Shown here: positions 46,521 through 51,320 of the stretch, one piece after another
Layout: each line of letters begins with the position of its first letter
Numbering within the stretch: the first letter of the stretch is position 1
Assembly (NCBI RefSeq): GCF_000012625.1
Contig: NC_007516.1
Location: 620,001 to 684,000, forward strand
Source of the DNA: Synechococcus sp. CC9605
Lineage (GTDB): Bacteria; Cyanobacteriota; Cyanobacteriia; PCC-6307; Cyanobiaceae
Direction: 5' to 3'
Length of the DNA: 64,000 nt
The notes under the pieces: generated by a model
Seen by the model: only the letters and a program-made list of their open reading frames with translations
The model's database searches: none
Told to the model about the DNA's origin: nothing
Program-made: the position numbers and the translations under genes

Positions 46521-47988
46521 AGTTCAAGCCATCCAATTCGCTGATAAGGGCATTCACATCGCCTTGGTCGCGGATCTGACGGAAGCTCGACCGTTTGATC
46601 TCTTCCAGCAGGGCCACCAGCAAATCCTGGCTGCGGCTGAGTACGGGCCCCTGCTCCAACGTGTGGGCCAGTTCTTCCCAGAGCCGATCCAAAGCCTCGG
46701 ATCCAAGCGATTCCAGAACCGTATCTCGCTGGCCGATGCGGTTTCCGGCTCCCTTGGACAGGTCGAGCACGGAGGTCACCATGCTTTCAGCCAGCTGACG
46801 GCTGAATTCCGATTCGGCGTTTTGCAGTCCAGGAAGTCGCCGCAGGGCATCCGGCACCACGTTCCGGTCCAAGCTCTGCTGCACCAGATGGCTGATCACG
46901 GCTTGCAGTTGCGGTCGCATGGCCGGACCAATGCGGGTGAGCAGCAGGGGTAGCCACAACCGCAGCAGCTCGATCACCTCCCGTTCATCGTTCAGACCAC
47001 TGCTTTGGTAGCTGCAGAGTCCGCGAACCCTCTCCGGCAGTTGTGGTGATCGGATCAGTTGCTGCAGAGTATCGATCACCCTGATGGCGATCACTTCAAA
47101 CAGCTCCACTGCCAACAGGGCCACCACACCGCGACTGATCACGGCACGAAGCGGTTCGAGTTGTAGTAAGCCTGCTCCGCAAAGCCGTTCTGTGACCGGG
47201 ATCAGCCTGAGCCAGCGTGCAAATGGCAGCAGCAGGGGCAGGTCGATCCAGCGGCGCAACAGGGCATCCCGCCAGCGGATCGCCGGGTAGCGCTGTTTCA
47301 GACGCCAGGCACGTAGAAGAATGTCGAGCAGAAACAGCAGTTGAAATGGCGTGTCGATGCGCCAGCTCAAATCGCTGGGGCGGCCGTTTTCATCGATGCT
47401 TCGCCAGTAGTTGCTTTCCGCCAGCGGCAGGATCTGCTGGCTCCAGAACTGACGCTCCTGGCTCCAGGGAGAGCGTTCCAGATGCTCGGGGCTGAGAAGA
47501 AGCTTGGCGGATTCACGGGCTGATTCCAGGCCGGTGCGGGCGCGCAGTCGGTTCTTGAATTTTTCAAGCGTGCCGGCTTGGCCTGAACTGATGAATGGGT
47601 TGCTGTCCATCAGCGCTGTGGTGAGCACCGCTTGCTGCTTCAGCAAAGCGTTGCTTTCAGCAGGGCTCGAGCCGTTCTGCTGCAGTGCCCAATCCAGGGC
47701 GCTGTAGGCCTTGAGGTAAGCCTCGGTGTCGCGATGGGGTTCGATGCCCTTGAGGGGATCCAGCCAGGGGGTGATGTCCGGCAACCAGGGCAGAGGAACC
47801 ACCAGGGGAAGTGATGGCACCGGATAAAGATTGCGTTGCAGCCAGAAGTTGCGCAGGGGGATGTAGGTGAGGTCGATGGCGACCCAGGTGAGATTGACCG
47901 CGGCGATCACAGCAATGGCCTGGTCCCAGCTGCGCCAGCTGAGCAGGCCGTGTTGGGGCTTCAGTACTTGCCAGCGTGGACGGATCAT
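46483..47988 (-). CDS. Conserved large hypothetical membrane protein, 501 aa
   Basis: It has a first helix (SWDQAIAVIAAVNLTWVAID), a long soluble helical loop (residues ~85-205), further hydrophobic stretches (TPFQLLFLLDILLRAW, AVISRGVVALLAVELFEVIA) and a C-terminal soluble helical domain rich in Leu and Arg. No known family motif is evident. The size and topology resemble cyanobacterial ion-channel-like or unknown membrane proteins. It is divergent from lepB by 78 nt. Confidence 0.65.
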   Translation of the reverse strand: MIRPRWQVLKPQHGLLSWRSWDQAIAVIAAVNLTWVAIDLTYIPLRNFWLQRNLYPVPSLPLVVPLPWLPDITPWLDPLKGIEPHRDTEAYLKAYSALDWALQQNGSSPAESNALLKQQAVLTTALMDSNPFISSGQAGTLEKFKNRLRARTGLESARESAKLLLSPEHLERSPWSQERQFWSQQILPLAESNYWRSIDENGRPSDLSWRIDTPFQLLFLLDILLRAWRLKQRYPAIRWRDALLRRWIDLPLLLPFARWLRLIPVTERLCGAGLLQLEPLRAVISRGVVALLAVELFEVIAIRVIDTLQQLIRSPQLPERVRGLCSYQSSGLNDEREVIELLRLWLPLLLTRIGPAMRPQLQAVISHLVQQSLDRNVVPDALRRLPGLQNAESEFSRQLAESMVTSVLDLSKGAGNRIGQRDTVLESLGSEALDRLWEELAHTLEQGPVLSRSQDLLVALLEEIKRSSFRQIRDQGDVNALISELDGLNFSPGVTTPIDQA

Positions 47989-48066
47989 GGGGCCTGCAGG
48001 CTCCCCCTATCGTGGGTCGAAAGATTGAGCCTGCCCACATTGAATGCGGAGAGAGGGCCTTCCGAT

Positions 48067-48732
48067 GTGAAGGGCAGAGTGAGCGCGATCTGGGAGTTCT
48101 GGGCCCCTTTTCTGTTCACGGTTTCGCTGTATCTCCTGCTTCGGCAGTTCGCCTTTGAAGCCCGCTATATCCCTTCGGGGTCGATGCTGCCGGGTCTTCA
48201 GGTGGGCGACAAGTTGATCGTCGAGAAGCTGTCGTACCGCTCCCGACCTCCTCAGCGGGGACAGATCGTTGTGTTCAATTCTCCGCGCGCCTTCGATCCC
48301 GTTTGGAAGTTGGAGGCGGGGCAACCCAATCCACTGAAGTGCGGCTTCGTCACCTTCCCGGGCATCAGCTGGGTTGTGGATCGTGTGCTGCTTCAGCGCT
48401 ATCCCGAATGTGAAGCCTGGATCAAACGGGTGGTGGGTGTGCCTGGTGATGTTGTGGAGGTCAACAGCCGTGGTGCCGTGAGCATTAATGGCACGGCCTT
48501 CAATGAGCCTTACGTCACCAACTTTTGCTCCGATCGCGACGGAATGATCGGCTGCAAGGGCCTGTATGCAGTTGTTCCCGAAGGCAACGTCGTTGTCCTG
48601 GGCGACAACCGCCGCAACAGTCAGGATGCCCGTCGTTGGCCGGGCGGACCGTTTTTGCCTGACAATCAGATCATCGGGCGTGCCGTCTTCCGCTTCTGGC
48701 CCCCTTCGCGTATCGGTCCGCTTAGCAACTGA
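48067..48732 (+). CDS. lepB: Signal peptidase I
   Basis: This 221-residue enzyme has one N-terminal membrane anchor (WEFWAPFLFTVSLYLLL). Its catalytic serine is in YIPSGSMLPGLQVGDKLIVE and its lysine in CEAWIKRVVGVPGDVVEVN. VVLGDNRRNSQDARRWPGG is the family's box E. It removes signal peptides at the periplasmic or lumenal face. The GTG start is supported by a GGAGAGAGGG-like ribosome binding site just upstream; other in-frame starts lie further upstream. Confidence 0.93.
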   Translation: MKGRVSAIWEFWAPFLFTVSLYLLLRQFAFEARYIPSGSMLPGLQVGDKLIVEKLSYRSRPPQRGQIVVFNSPRAFDPVWKLEAGQPNPLKCGFVTFPGISWVVDRVLLQRYPECEAWIKRVVGVPGDVVEVNSRGAVSINGTAFNEPYVTNFCSDRDGMIGCKGLYAVVPEGNVVVLGDNRRNSQDARRWPGGPFLPDNQIIGRAVFRFWPPSRIGPLSN

Positions 48733-49987
48733 GGCCACAGGCCACAACTCGTCCCTGAAGCTCCCGTCCCAGCCAGGGGATGTTGGCGGCACGTGGTGCT
48801 CCCGGCGTGTCACTGCCGATGGTCCAGCGTGAATCGGGATCAAACAGCAGCCAGCGCCTGCTGCCCTGTTCGAGTTGTTCAGGGGGCTGATCGATCAGGG
48901 CTGACGGCCCAAAGCTGAGGGCCTGCCAAAGGTCTTCAACGCTCCAGTGGCCCGGCTGCACCAGGGCATTCCAGAGCGCAGGAAGCACCACATGGTGGCC
49001 GCTGAGGCCTGCGGGGCGCTGGTCACCCGGCAACAGCATGTCCTCAGCATCCAGAGGAACAGCGTGGACAGCCACGGCAGTAATCGTTCGCTGCTGAACG
49101 GCCTGGATCAACAGCTGGCGATCGTCTGGACCACCGAGGGAGGGGCAGACGCGCCAGCTCGGACTGCTGCTGGCCAGCATGCTGCGGTCGGTGAGGAGAT
49201 GCCACCAGCTCACGCTGCTTATGGGGGGCGACTCGCAGCCTGAAAGCTGCTGCACCGCCGCTGCAGTGGAGAGGTTCATCAGCCGCAGTTGTCGTTCCGG
49301 ATGACGTTGATGCAGCAGCAGCACCTGGCCGAGAGGAAGGGTCTCGCTGGTGACCGGATCCGCTGGCCATCCGGCCCGCAGCGTCTCCACCCCTTCCCGC
49401 ACCAGCCCCTCCCCCTGCAGCGTGGGATCCCGGGGTGCCACGAGCACCGGGCAACCCCCCATTTCTCCGAGCAGCAATCCCCGTTCCAGCAACGGGGCTG
49501 GAACCATGGCGTCGTCGTCCGCCAGTCCGATGGCACCGTGTTCGAGAAGATCGCCATGGGGAGCAAGTTCATCCCCCTTGCCACCACTGCTGAAGCCTCC
49601 CCAAAGGTGCAGGCGAACCGTTGCCGTCTGATCCTGATCGAGGCTGAATCCCTGGAGTCGTTCTGGACGATCGCGCCAGCTGCTGCTGCGGGGAAGTAGG
49701 GCAATCTGGCCGTAGCCTCCTGCGGCGGCACAGTGCCGCATACTCACGGCTGTTTCTTGATCCCCACTGAAAGGGGTCTCCAGGACGGAATGGGGATCAA
49801 CCAGGCAGGGAGCGACCAGTTGATCCGCTGCAGGACTGGCTTTGATGCCCAGGCCGAGGGCCTGCTGCCTCGCCTCGTCGTCAAAGCCGACGAGAACCCC
49901 CTGGTTGATCAGAACTGCACCGAGCTGAACCGAATGTCCGGGGCCACGCAGGACGCGCACCGGATCCAGCAGCAAGGTGTCGTTCAT
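48722..49987 (-). CDS. Dihydroorotase-like protein, metal site degenerate
   Basis: This 421-residue protein shows the amidohydrolase layout of long dihydroorotases: LVAPCLVDPHSVLETPFSGD, ETAVSMRHCAAAGGYGQIAL, IGLADDDAMVP, LNLSTAAAVQQLSG, and a C-terminal TIGSDTPGAPRAANIPWLGR region. Where active enzymes have DxHxHxREPG, it reads DPHSVLETP: the first His remains, the second and the Arg are lost. It resembles the non-catalytic PyrC' (PyrX) type that partners aspartate carbamoyltransferase. It follows the gpm-like gene by 4 nt. Confidence 0.78.
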   Translation of the reverse strand: MNDTLLLDPVRVLRGPGHSVQLGAVLINQGVLVGFDDEARQQALGLGIKASPAADQLVAPCLVDPHSVLETPFSGDQETAVSMRHCAAAGGYGQIALLPRSSSWRDRPERLQGFSLDQDQTATVRLHLWGGFSSGGKGDELAPHGDLLEHGAIGLADDDAMVPAPLLERGLLLGEMGGCPVLVAPRDPTLQGEGLVREGVETLRAGWPADPVTSETLPLGQVLLLHQRHPERQLRLMNLSTAAAVQQLSGCESPPISSVSWWHLLTDRSMLASSSPSWRVCPSLGGPDDRQLLIQAVQQRTITAVAVHAVPLDAEDMLLPGDQRPAGLSGHHVVLPALWNALVQPGHWSVEDLWQALSFGPSALIDQPPEQLEQGSRRWLLFDPDSRWTIGSDTPGAPRAANIPWLGRELQGRVVACGLSC

Positions 49988-49991
49988 GACG

Positions 49992-51320
49992 TCAGAGAGC
50001 GCCTGCTGCCGTGCGGTCAATCACGCTTCCGAAGTGGGAGGTGAGGTTGAGGCAGGTCACCACTGCAGGCTGGCCTGGATCGGCGGCAATGTCGACCACC
50101 GTGACGCCACCGTTGCCCTGTTTGACAGCCCAGATGTCGGCCGGGGTCAGCCCCAACAGGTCGCAGAGGATCGTCTTGTTGACGGCGTCGTGGGCCACCA
50201 CCAGCACCGTTTCCTCAGGCTTCAACTCGCCAGCGATCTCTCCCCAGCTGCGGACGGAACGGCCCCACACGTCCTGAATGGTTTCCCCCTCAGGCATCTG
50301 CACGGTCTCCGGAGCACGTTTCCAGGTGTCCAGCAGCTCCGACCAGTCCTCTCTGATTTCGGATTCGAGCTTGCCTTCCCAGACTCCGTGTCCGATTTCC
50401 ACCAGTCCGTCGATCTGGGTCAGGGGCACATCGGGATGCGCCTCGAGAATGATCTGGGCCGTTTCGGTCGGGCGCGACAGCGTGCTGCTCCAGGCCCGAT
50501 CGATGGGGATGTCTTTGAGGAAGTCGCGGGCGGCCGCGGCTTGACGGCGACCGTTCTCATTCAGCGGAATATCGATCTGCCCCTGGAAGCGCCCGGCTTT
50601 GTTCCAGTCGGTTTCGCCGTGTCGCACCAAAATCAGCCTGGCGTTTTTGCCCTTCTCCGGCAGCGGTTGCAGGTGCGTGATGCTGTTCAGGCATTCAATT
50701 TGCACCTGGGGGCCGTTCTCTCCCGGCCGGATGTTGAAGACCGAAAGGGAGGTGTTGTCGACGCGGAGCCGCCGGAAGCCGTGGTCGGGTTCCCCCAGCA
50801 ACACCAGCATCAGGCAGCGCAGGATGGCGTTGTGGGCCACCACCAGCAGCGTGTCGTTGCCGTTGGCGGGATGGCGTTCCAACAACTTGCTGATGAAGTC
50901 CTGCGCCTGTTCCATCAGCTCAGGCAGTGGCTTGTAGCTCGAACCATCACGACGCTGGAGCTCCAGCTCCATGGGCCGCTGCTTCCAGATCTTGTAGGCC
51001 TCCGTTGAGCCTTGCATCAGTTCGTCGATGGTCTGGCCAGACCAGGGCTCAAGATCCACCTCCAGCAGTCTGTCATCAAAGACGGGAGCTGGGGACTGAC
51101 CACCTTTGGTCTCCAGCAGGCTCGCCGTCGTCGCGGCCGCTCGCTGCAGTGGGGAGCTGTAGATGGCCTGGAGGCTCACGTCCTCAAGCGAGCGGCCCAG
51201 GGCCCGGGCCTGCTCATGCCCCTCCTCGCTGAGGTTCGAAAGATCATCGCGGCCCTGGATCCGTCGTTCCTTGTTGAAACTGCTGAGACCGTGGCGGACC
51301 AGAAGAAGACGAAGGGGCAC
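49992..51320 (-). CDS. Tandem histidine phosphatase (phosphoglycerate-mutase-like)
   Basis: This 442-residue protein has two phosphoglycerate-mutase domains in one chain. The first starts LRLLLVRHGLSSFNKERRIQ (residues 1-210) and the second RLILVRHGETDWNKAGRFQG (residues ~230-440). The second is the better match: catalytic RHG, IDRAWSSTLSRPTETAQII and a second-His TVLVVAHDAVNKTILC. The first also keeps RHG and LLVVAHNAILRCLM. In this form it could be a GpmB-like mutase or a sugar-phosphate phosphatase. The DHOase-like gene follows by 4 nt. Confidence 0.88.
   Translation of the reverse strand: MPLRLLLVRHGLSSFNKERRIQGRDDLSNLSEEGHEQARALGRSLEDVSLQAIYSSPLQRAAATTASLLETKGGQSPAPVFDDRLLEVDLEPWSGQTIDELMQGSTEAYKIWKQRPMELELQRRDGSSYKPLPELMEQAQDFISKLLERHPANGNDTLLVVAHNAILRCLMLVLLGEPDHGFRRLRVDNTSLSVFNIRPGENGPQVQIECLNSITHLQPLPEKGKNARLILVRHGETDWNKAGRFQGQIDIPLNENGRRQAAAARDFLKDIPIDRAWSSTLSRPTETAQIILEAHPDVPLTQIDGLVEIGHGVWEGKLESEIREDWSELLDTWKRAPETVQMPEGETIQDVWGRSVRSWGEIAGELKPEETVLVVAHDAVNKTILCDLLGLTPADIWAVKQGNGGVTVVDIAADPGQPAVVTCLNLTSHFGSVIDRTAAGAL

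Follow-up and report, generated by a model that had tools for sequence, protein, structure and literature searches.

A conserved, probably inactive dihydroorotase relative of cyanobacteria, paired with a tandem histidine phosphatase gene and a candidate non-catalytic partner of aspartate transcarbamoylase

Our analysis of a window of 64,000 nucleotides from the genome of Synechococcus sp. CC9605 (NC_007516.1, positions 620,001 to 684,000) identifies a relative of type-I dihydroorotases (DHOs), hereafter psD for pseudo-dihydroorotase, in which the loss of active-site residues is an old, family-wide trait and no local breakage. The reading that we favour, tentatively and at somewhat short of even chances, is that psD makes no dihydroorotate and acts as a non-catalytic partner of aspartate transcarbamoylase (ATCase; PyrB). 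According to this proposal, an ancient type-I DHO relative would have lost its catalytic residues and been kept in nearly all Cyanobacteriia sampled, dihydroorotate being presumably made by a separate enzyme, a class II PyrC here and, in the other cyanobacteria examined, a DHO of the PRK07575 type. By analogy with PyrC' in Pseudomonas, psD would be a structural or regulatory subunit of PyrB, encoded away from pyrB, in a putative operon that also includes a tandem histidine phosphatase, and apparently dispensable in one genus of small genomes.

The psD gene occupies positions 48722..49987 of the window on the reverse strand and encodes 421 amino acids from an ATG at 49987, its stop codon ending at 48722; an in-frame TTG at 50020 is an alternative start that would give 11 extra residues. 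The 5' partner in this conserved gene pair is the tandem histidine phosphatase (49992..51320, reverse strand), in which Pfam recognizes two His_Phos_1 stretches. Its stop codon (49994-49992) is followed by a gap of 4 nt and then the psD ATG, the spacing that the first-pass annotation of this DNA had reported, and this TGA-4 nt-ATG junction is identical in 11/11 close homologs. A convergent lepB open frame on the forward strand (47836..48732, the extent of the frame and not its true start), which we take to encode signal peptidase I, shares 11 nt with the 3' end of psD. Across 11 close pairs the dN/dS of psD is 0.11-0.19. Matches to psD were found in 77 of 78 genomes, its own included, a few of them being fragments from incomplete assemblies; the sole genome without a match is 69% complete, and the phosphatase was not found there either. 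Of 146 genomes sampled evenly across the phylum, 87 matched the psD profile. Those of the same class among the matches listed, at least 58 genomes, all have a best match of at least 350 bits; outside this class, some of the weaker matches belong to intact DHOs or to proteins resembling allantoinase. psD is a real gene under purifying selection; the conserved junction, the dN/dS values and the orthologs rule out a local pseudogene or frame error. One genome carries a second, divergent pair of psD and phosphatase, 50% identical to that of the window (G018, contig C1, L045:1373-2656), in an incomplete assembly where contamination could explain it.

The AlphaFold2 model of psD, computed from 48 sequences, has a mean pLDDT of 92.4 and a pTM of 0.93. 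Among known structures, its first six matches all belong to the type-I DHOs, with Z values of 45-47 across 406-409 residues, and the first seven Foldseek matches have E values from 2e-33 to 8e-31. This confident model strongly supports the retention of the type-I DHO fold, as the first-pass annotation had supposed from the sequence. Pfam returned no match to the window psD even at E 1, and neither of two psD from cyanobacteria outside the Cyanobiaceae was matched at the same threshold. The best NCBIfam match of the window psD is NF005614 (PRK07369), an equivalog named 'dihydroorotase', at 263 bits and thus under the cut-off of 456; the two non-Cyanobiaceae proteins score 608 and 614 bits with it. 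The activity implied by this name finds no support in the residues of psD, and the label 'dihydroorotase' is probably wrong for these proteins. Among the open-licence PMC articles listed by literature searches we saw none on cyanobacterial psD, and those listed for tandem histidine phosphatases in cyanobacteria offered nothing of evident use.

We compared residues by aligning the window psD with partial type-I DHO sequences of B. anthracis and S. aureus. The DVHVHLREPG motif of DHOs, in which the Arg after HxH binds the substrate, has become DPHSVLETPF in psD: psD retains the first His and has Val for the second and Glu for the substrate Arg. This degenerate alpha-site motif (DPHSVLETP, D64-P72) lies at 49772..49798 on the reverse strand. 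The alignment also replaces the first beta-site His by Ala (A184, 49436..49438, ambiguous between A184 and P185), the second by Asn (N238, 49274..49276) and the catalytic Asp by His (H308, 49064..49066), all on the reverse strand. The first-pass annotation had thus correctly read the loss of one His ligand and of the substrate Arg from the motif, but it overlooked that the two beta-site His and the catalytic Asp are replaced as well. In the Aquifex enzyme, the ligands are His61, His63 and Asp153 at the alpha site and His180 and His232 at the beta site, with Asp305 near the metal, and the two beta-site His are dispensable (PMC3880350). Because that DHO functions without its beta site, the missing beta-site His would not by themselves prove inactivity, and we discarded that argument; what we rely on is the loss at the alpha site, of the Arg and, in the Cyanobiaceae, of the catalytic Asp. 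Unlike the Aquifex DHO, to which it is 22% identical, the window psD keeps only the first His and an Asp of the six positions, and the metal centre of an active type-I dihydroorotase was not found in it.

These losses extend through the family. Among 158 distinct orthologs, 111 nearer to the window protein (the Cyanobiaceae type) and 47 nearer to psD of another family, none retains the substrate Arg or either beta-site His; both His of HxH are retained in 2/158, and no ortholog combines HxH with the catalytic Asp. In the Cyanobiaceae type the catalytic Asp has been replaced in all 111 proteins, 89 times by His, 20 times by Asn and twice by Gln, and the second beta-site His is Asn in 107/111. 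Outside the Cyanobiaceae, Tyr replaces the first His in 46/47, Gly the substrate Arg in 45/47 and Arg the second beta-site His in 45/47, while the catalytic Asp and the alpha-site Asp are each retained in 45/47. The residues and the model together strongly support the view of the first-pass annotation that psD is probably non-catalytic.

It seems improbable to us that psD has kept a catalytic activity, be it that of a dihydroorotase or of some other cyclic amidohydrolase, its metal site being remodelled or absent. One report (PMC2770081) describes as active a Zur-linked PyrC paralog that lacks the conserved zinc residues, and in 73 of the 111 Cyanobiaceae-type proteins at least three of the six ligand positions have H/D/E/C (e.g. 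H66, an Asp and H308), so that a metal site may have been rebuilt in some members; the two Asp retained outside the Cyanobiaceae point the same way. However, the substrate Arg is gone from all 158 orthologs, and 38/111 Cyanobiaceae-type and 16/47 other psD have at most two candidate ligands among the six positions, which indicates that metal binding there is not the conserved property. The own genome, moreover, has a separate intact DHO.

This enzyme is a class II PyrC (L002, open frame ~941954-942997) that scores 448 bits with TIGR00856 against a cut-off of 293. It excludes psD as the only pyrC of the genome, and it is the second, intact pyrC for which the first-pass annotation had proposed a search. 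Pfam Amidohydro_1 has two members in this genome, the class II PyrC and a protein that we take to be urease-like. A second DHO, PRK07575-like, is present at ten loci that come from other families or from G040, a deep Cyanobiaceae genome; one of these DHOs was scored (787 bits against a cut-off of 529). Such proteins are the presumed true DHO at the non-Cyanobiaceae loci examined, and L049:2896-4254, L119:5911-7260 and L048:2583-4148 have the motif DPQVHFRE/DPG, with Gln for the first metal His. Two of the PRK07575-like DHOs group (100/100) with a Pseudoalteromonas DHO adjoining folE2, and this type may therefore correspond to the low-zinc PyrC of PMC2770081. Family f41 has a compact type-I DHO whose motifs are intact; its gene abuts pyrB, and the two open frames overlap (L110:5968-7020 and L115:5989-7056; 351 and 356 aa).

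In the Synechococcus genome, pyrB (296589-297629) lies far from psD (668725-670020). The closest solved relatives of PyrB are 3r7d/2at2 (169 bits), presumably the stand-alone enzyme of B. subtilis, followed by Aquifex 3d6n_B (157 bits). A third, ATCase-like carbamoyltransferase is also encoded there (G000:C1:2444266-2445198, L185); its scores of 193.8 and 190.8 bits fall short of the two ATCase cut-offs, 236.95 and 263 respectively, and it has similar matches in other members of the genus.

Several known systems resemble psD in part. In P. aeruginosa, ATCase requires an inactive DHO-like chain (PMC7053772). Like this PyrC'/PyrX of class A2 ATCase, psD is a type-I DHO homolog that keeps the fold but lacks metal ligands and substrate residues, coexists with a separate intact dihydroorotase, and shares its side of our trees with proteobacterial pseudo-DHOs. 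Unlike PyrC'/PyrX, it is paired with the tandem histidine phosphatase, with no pyrB near it in any of 40 loci (L033-L072; flanks up to ~5 kb, some shorter), and most members of a related genus lack it, PyrB being kept in that genus. The psD model also resembles the type-I DHO of Aquifex aeolicus in its complex with ATCase (3d6n and 4bjh; PMC3880350), with a Z of 46 over 409 residues. The 'Inactive dihydroorotase-like domain' 5nnl offers another inactive DHO-like domain in a pyrimidine context, although psD is very distant from it (40 bits, profile A1) and this domain sits in a fusion protein. The domain is of fungal origin (PMC7053772) and belongs to a CAD-like protein.

For the phylogeny, DHO-like genes were also drawn from 19 records of a plasmid collection. 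Nine proteobacterial proteins are pseudo-DHOs by motif (two from Azospirillum, and one each from Methylobacterium, Sinorhizobium, Shinella, Tritonibacter, Ruegeria, Sphingomonas and Acinetobacter). pyrB lies upstream on the same stretch at 9/9 of their loci; it does so too at 7/9 control loci of intact relatives, so that linkage to pyrB is common to the whole family. The gap between pyrB and the pseudo-DHO gene is ~0.6 kb in Tritonibacter and Ruegeria, and two other gaps are blurred by over-long frames. Rufibacter tibetensis plasmid 2 (L461:1357-2637) also encodes a pseudo-DHO by motif (DLSAFTGEPG), with no pyrB in view on its 12.5-kb record; it carried the label DHO when the trees were built.

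In a tree of 35 proteins, 18 pseudo-DHO rows, eight of them cyanobacterial, lie on one side of a branch (96/96, with the bootstrap not settled). After removal of 95 active-site columns the pseudo-DHO grouping stays (86/88), and psD stands beside Acinetobacter (97/81); a placement of psD with the alphaproteobacterial set alone is not rejected (p-AU 0.163). The Cyanobiaceae psD and the Pseudomonas PyrC' were left out of these two larger trees; in earlier trees, Cyanobiaceae psD group with other psD (100/100). From these alignments, the non-Cyanobiaceae psD appear to group, with moderate support, with the pyrB-linked proteobacterial pseudo-DHOs (PyrX/PyrC'). The branches are long, however, and PyrB gives a different picture: its cyanobacterial members are sister (97/99) to those of the f48 relatives, whose DHO is intact, a single clade of cyanobacterial and PyrX-linked PyrB is rejected (p-AU 0.0195), and the PyrX-linked PyrB themselves do not form one clade. 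Either psD arrived from a PyrX lineage, or the grouping is partly an artefact.

Another explanation would derive psD from an active PyrC of the phylum itself, with a structural role for psD and a PyrX grouping that stems from long-branch attraction or parallel loss. PyrB indeed looks vertically inherited with the f48 relatives. Without the active-site columns, psD with f48 alone is not clearly rejected (p-AU 0.075), and in a smaller set psD with intact type-I enzymes is not rejected either (p-AU 0.099). Yet psD with both f48 and f41, the intact DHOs of the phylum, is rejected without the active-site columns (p-AU 0.011), as is psD with f48 when all columns of the smaller set are used (p-AU 0.0097), and we hold such an origin to be improbable.

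The phosphatase is the most conserved neighbour of psD. It lies directly upstream on the same strand in 17/18 Cyanobiaceae loci, 7/8 loci of genus g43, 72/80 loci of named Cyanobiaceae, 15/24 loci of the class and 18/30 loci of the phylum sample, whose flanks were only 1.5 kb; these sets overlap in a few genomes, and some of the misses are due to short contigs or unclear frames. In 7/24 class loci it was not found near psD. The two genes are probably co-transcribed. The first-pass annotation had placed psD behind the phosphatase rather than among pyr genes, which is true here and not everywhere, a DHO of the other, PRK07575-like type lying 0.7-1.9 kb downstream of psD in 4/24 class loci (two of them from one genus, and one with the DHO on the opposite strand) and in G040.

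Natural losses of psD bear on both candidate partners. In the genus of G176, probably Prochlorococcus, psD was matched in 9/41 genomes, or 4/15 among the well-finished ones. In G176, G217 and G237, lepB adjoins the phosphatase (3/3 loci examined), and tblastn found no trace of psD at these loci. PyrB was found in 7/7 psD-less genomes tested, which we count, as indirect evidence, against an obligatory role of psD for PyrB. PyrB N-domain HMM scores separate the psD-less genomes (119.5-124.7, n=7) from psD-bearing ones (125.8-133.1, n=6), and ArgF scores show no separation. PyrB of the psD-less genomes also differs at positions invariant in 12/12 others, e.g. Arg to Lys in STRTR, the psD-less set being one clade and the psD status of one of the 12 being unknown. 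Although the HMM scores separate the clades, we dropped the idea that PyrB accelerated after the loss of psD, as relative-rate tests were not significant (15 versus 7 sites, p 0.13; 11 versus 6 for all seven genomes, p 0.33; Tajima-type tests, p 0.27-1).

We also measured rate covariation as partial rho over 39 genomes and 75 branches under two topologies. The values for psD and PyrB are 0.36-0.40, against 0.01-0.10 for psD with ArgF or PurA; inside the Cyanobiaceae psD and PyrB reach 0.21-0.26, which is not significant. For psD and the phosphatase, rho is 0.25-0.34 overall and 0.32-0.47 inside the Cyanobiaceae. ArgF and PurA, for which we know of no functional link of such a kind, give 0.45-0.52, and in an earlier four-gene run psD and PyrB reached 0.48 but the phosphatase and ArgF also 0.50. 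With an unrelated pair scoring as high and a high background, covariation is weak evidence.

Given its conservation beside psD, the phosphatase provides the main rival to our interpretation: psD could have left the pyrimidine pathway and now assist or regulate the tandem histidine phosphatase, its reshaped pocket perhaps binding a ligand. We rank this reading next after the partnership with PyrB and consider it rather unlikely. The adjacency in most loci and the covariation inside the Cyanobiaceae speak for it, as do the new residues conserved at former ligand positions, namely the Tyr, Gly and Arg outside the Cyanobiaceae and the Asn within them. On the other hand, the phosphatase remains at all three loci that have lost psD, its rate was unchanged after the loss in the one case tested, it was not found near psD in some class loci, and the phylogeny links psD to PyrB-linked pseudo-DHOs.

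The partnership with PyrB, which the first-pass annotation had suggested after the example of PyrC', thus stands in part. In its favour are the phylogeny of pseudo-DHOs, the separate PyrC and the weak rate covariation; against it are the 40 loci without pyrB, the clean loss of psD with PyrB kept, and the disagreement of the PyrB tree. We also count against it that psD with the intact type-I enzymes was not rejected in the smaller set, that ArgF and PurA covary as strongly, that psD and PyrB show no significant covariation inside the Cyanobiaceae, and that 3r7d/2at2 rank ahead of Aquifex 3d6n_B as solved relatives of PyrB. By the analogy with Pseudomonas, psD would bind PyrB and affect its assembly or regulation. 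One may also imagine, as a speculation to which we give little credence, that psD was recruited early in cyanobacteria as a non-catalytic partner of the phosphatase, sensing a ligand of the pyrimidine pathway and coupling the phosphatase to pyrimidine flux. The pocket of non-Cyanobiaceae psD is conserved, with mostly Tyr, Gly, Trp and Arg in place of His, Arg, His and His. We know of no counterpart of such a pair of pseudoenzyme and phosphatase.

As psD has lost the active-site residues of DHOs, annotations and metabolic models that use the NF005614 name probably credit the wrong gene with dihydroorotate synthesis. If psD holds ATCase together, cyanobacterial pyrimidine synthesis would join the class A2 type, and the close relatives with and without psD would provide a natural test of what a pseudo-dihydroorotase is for.
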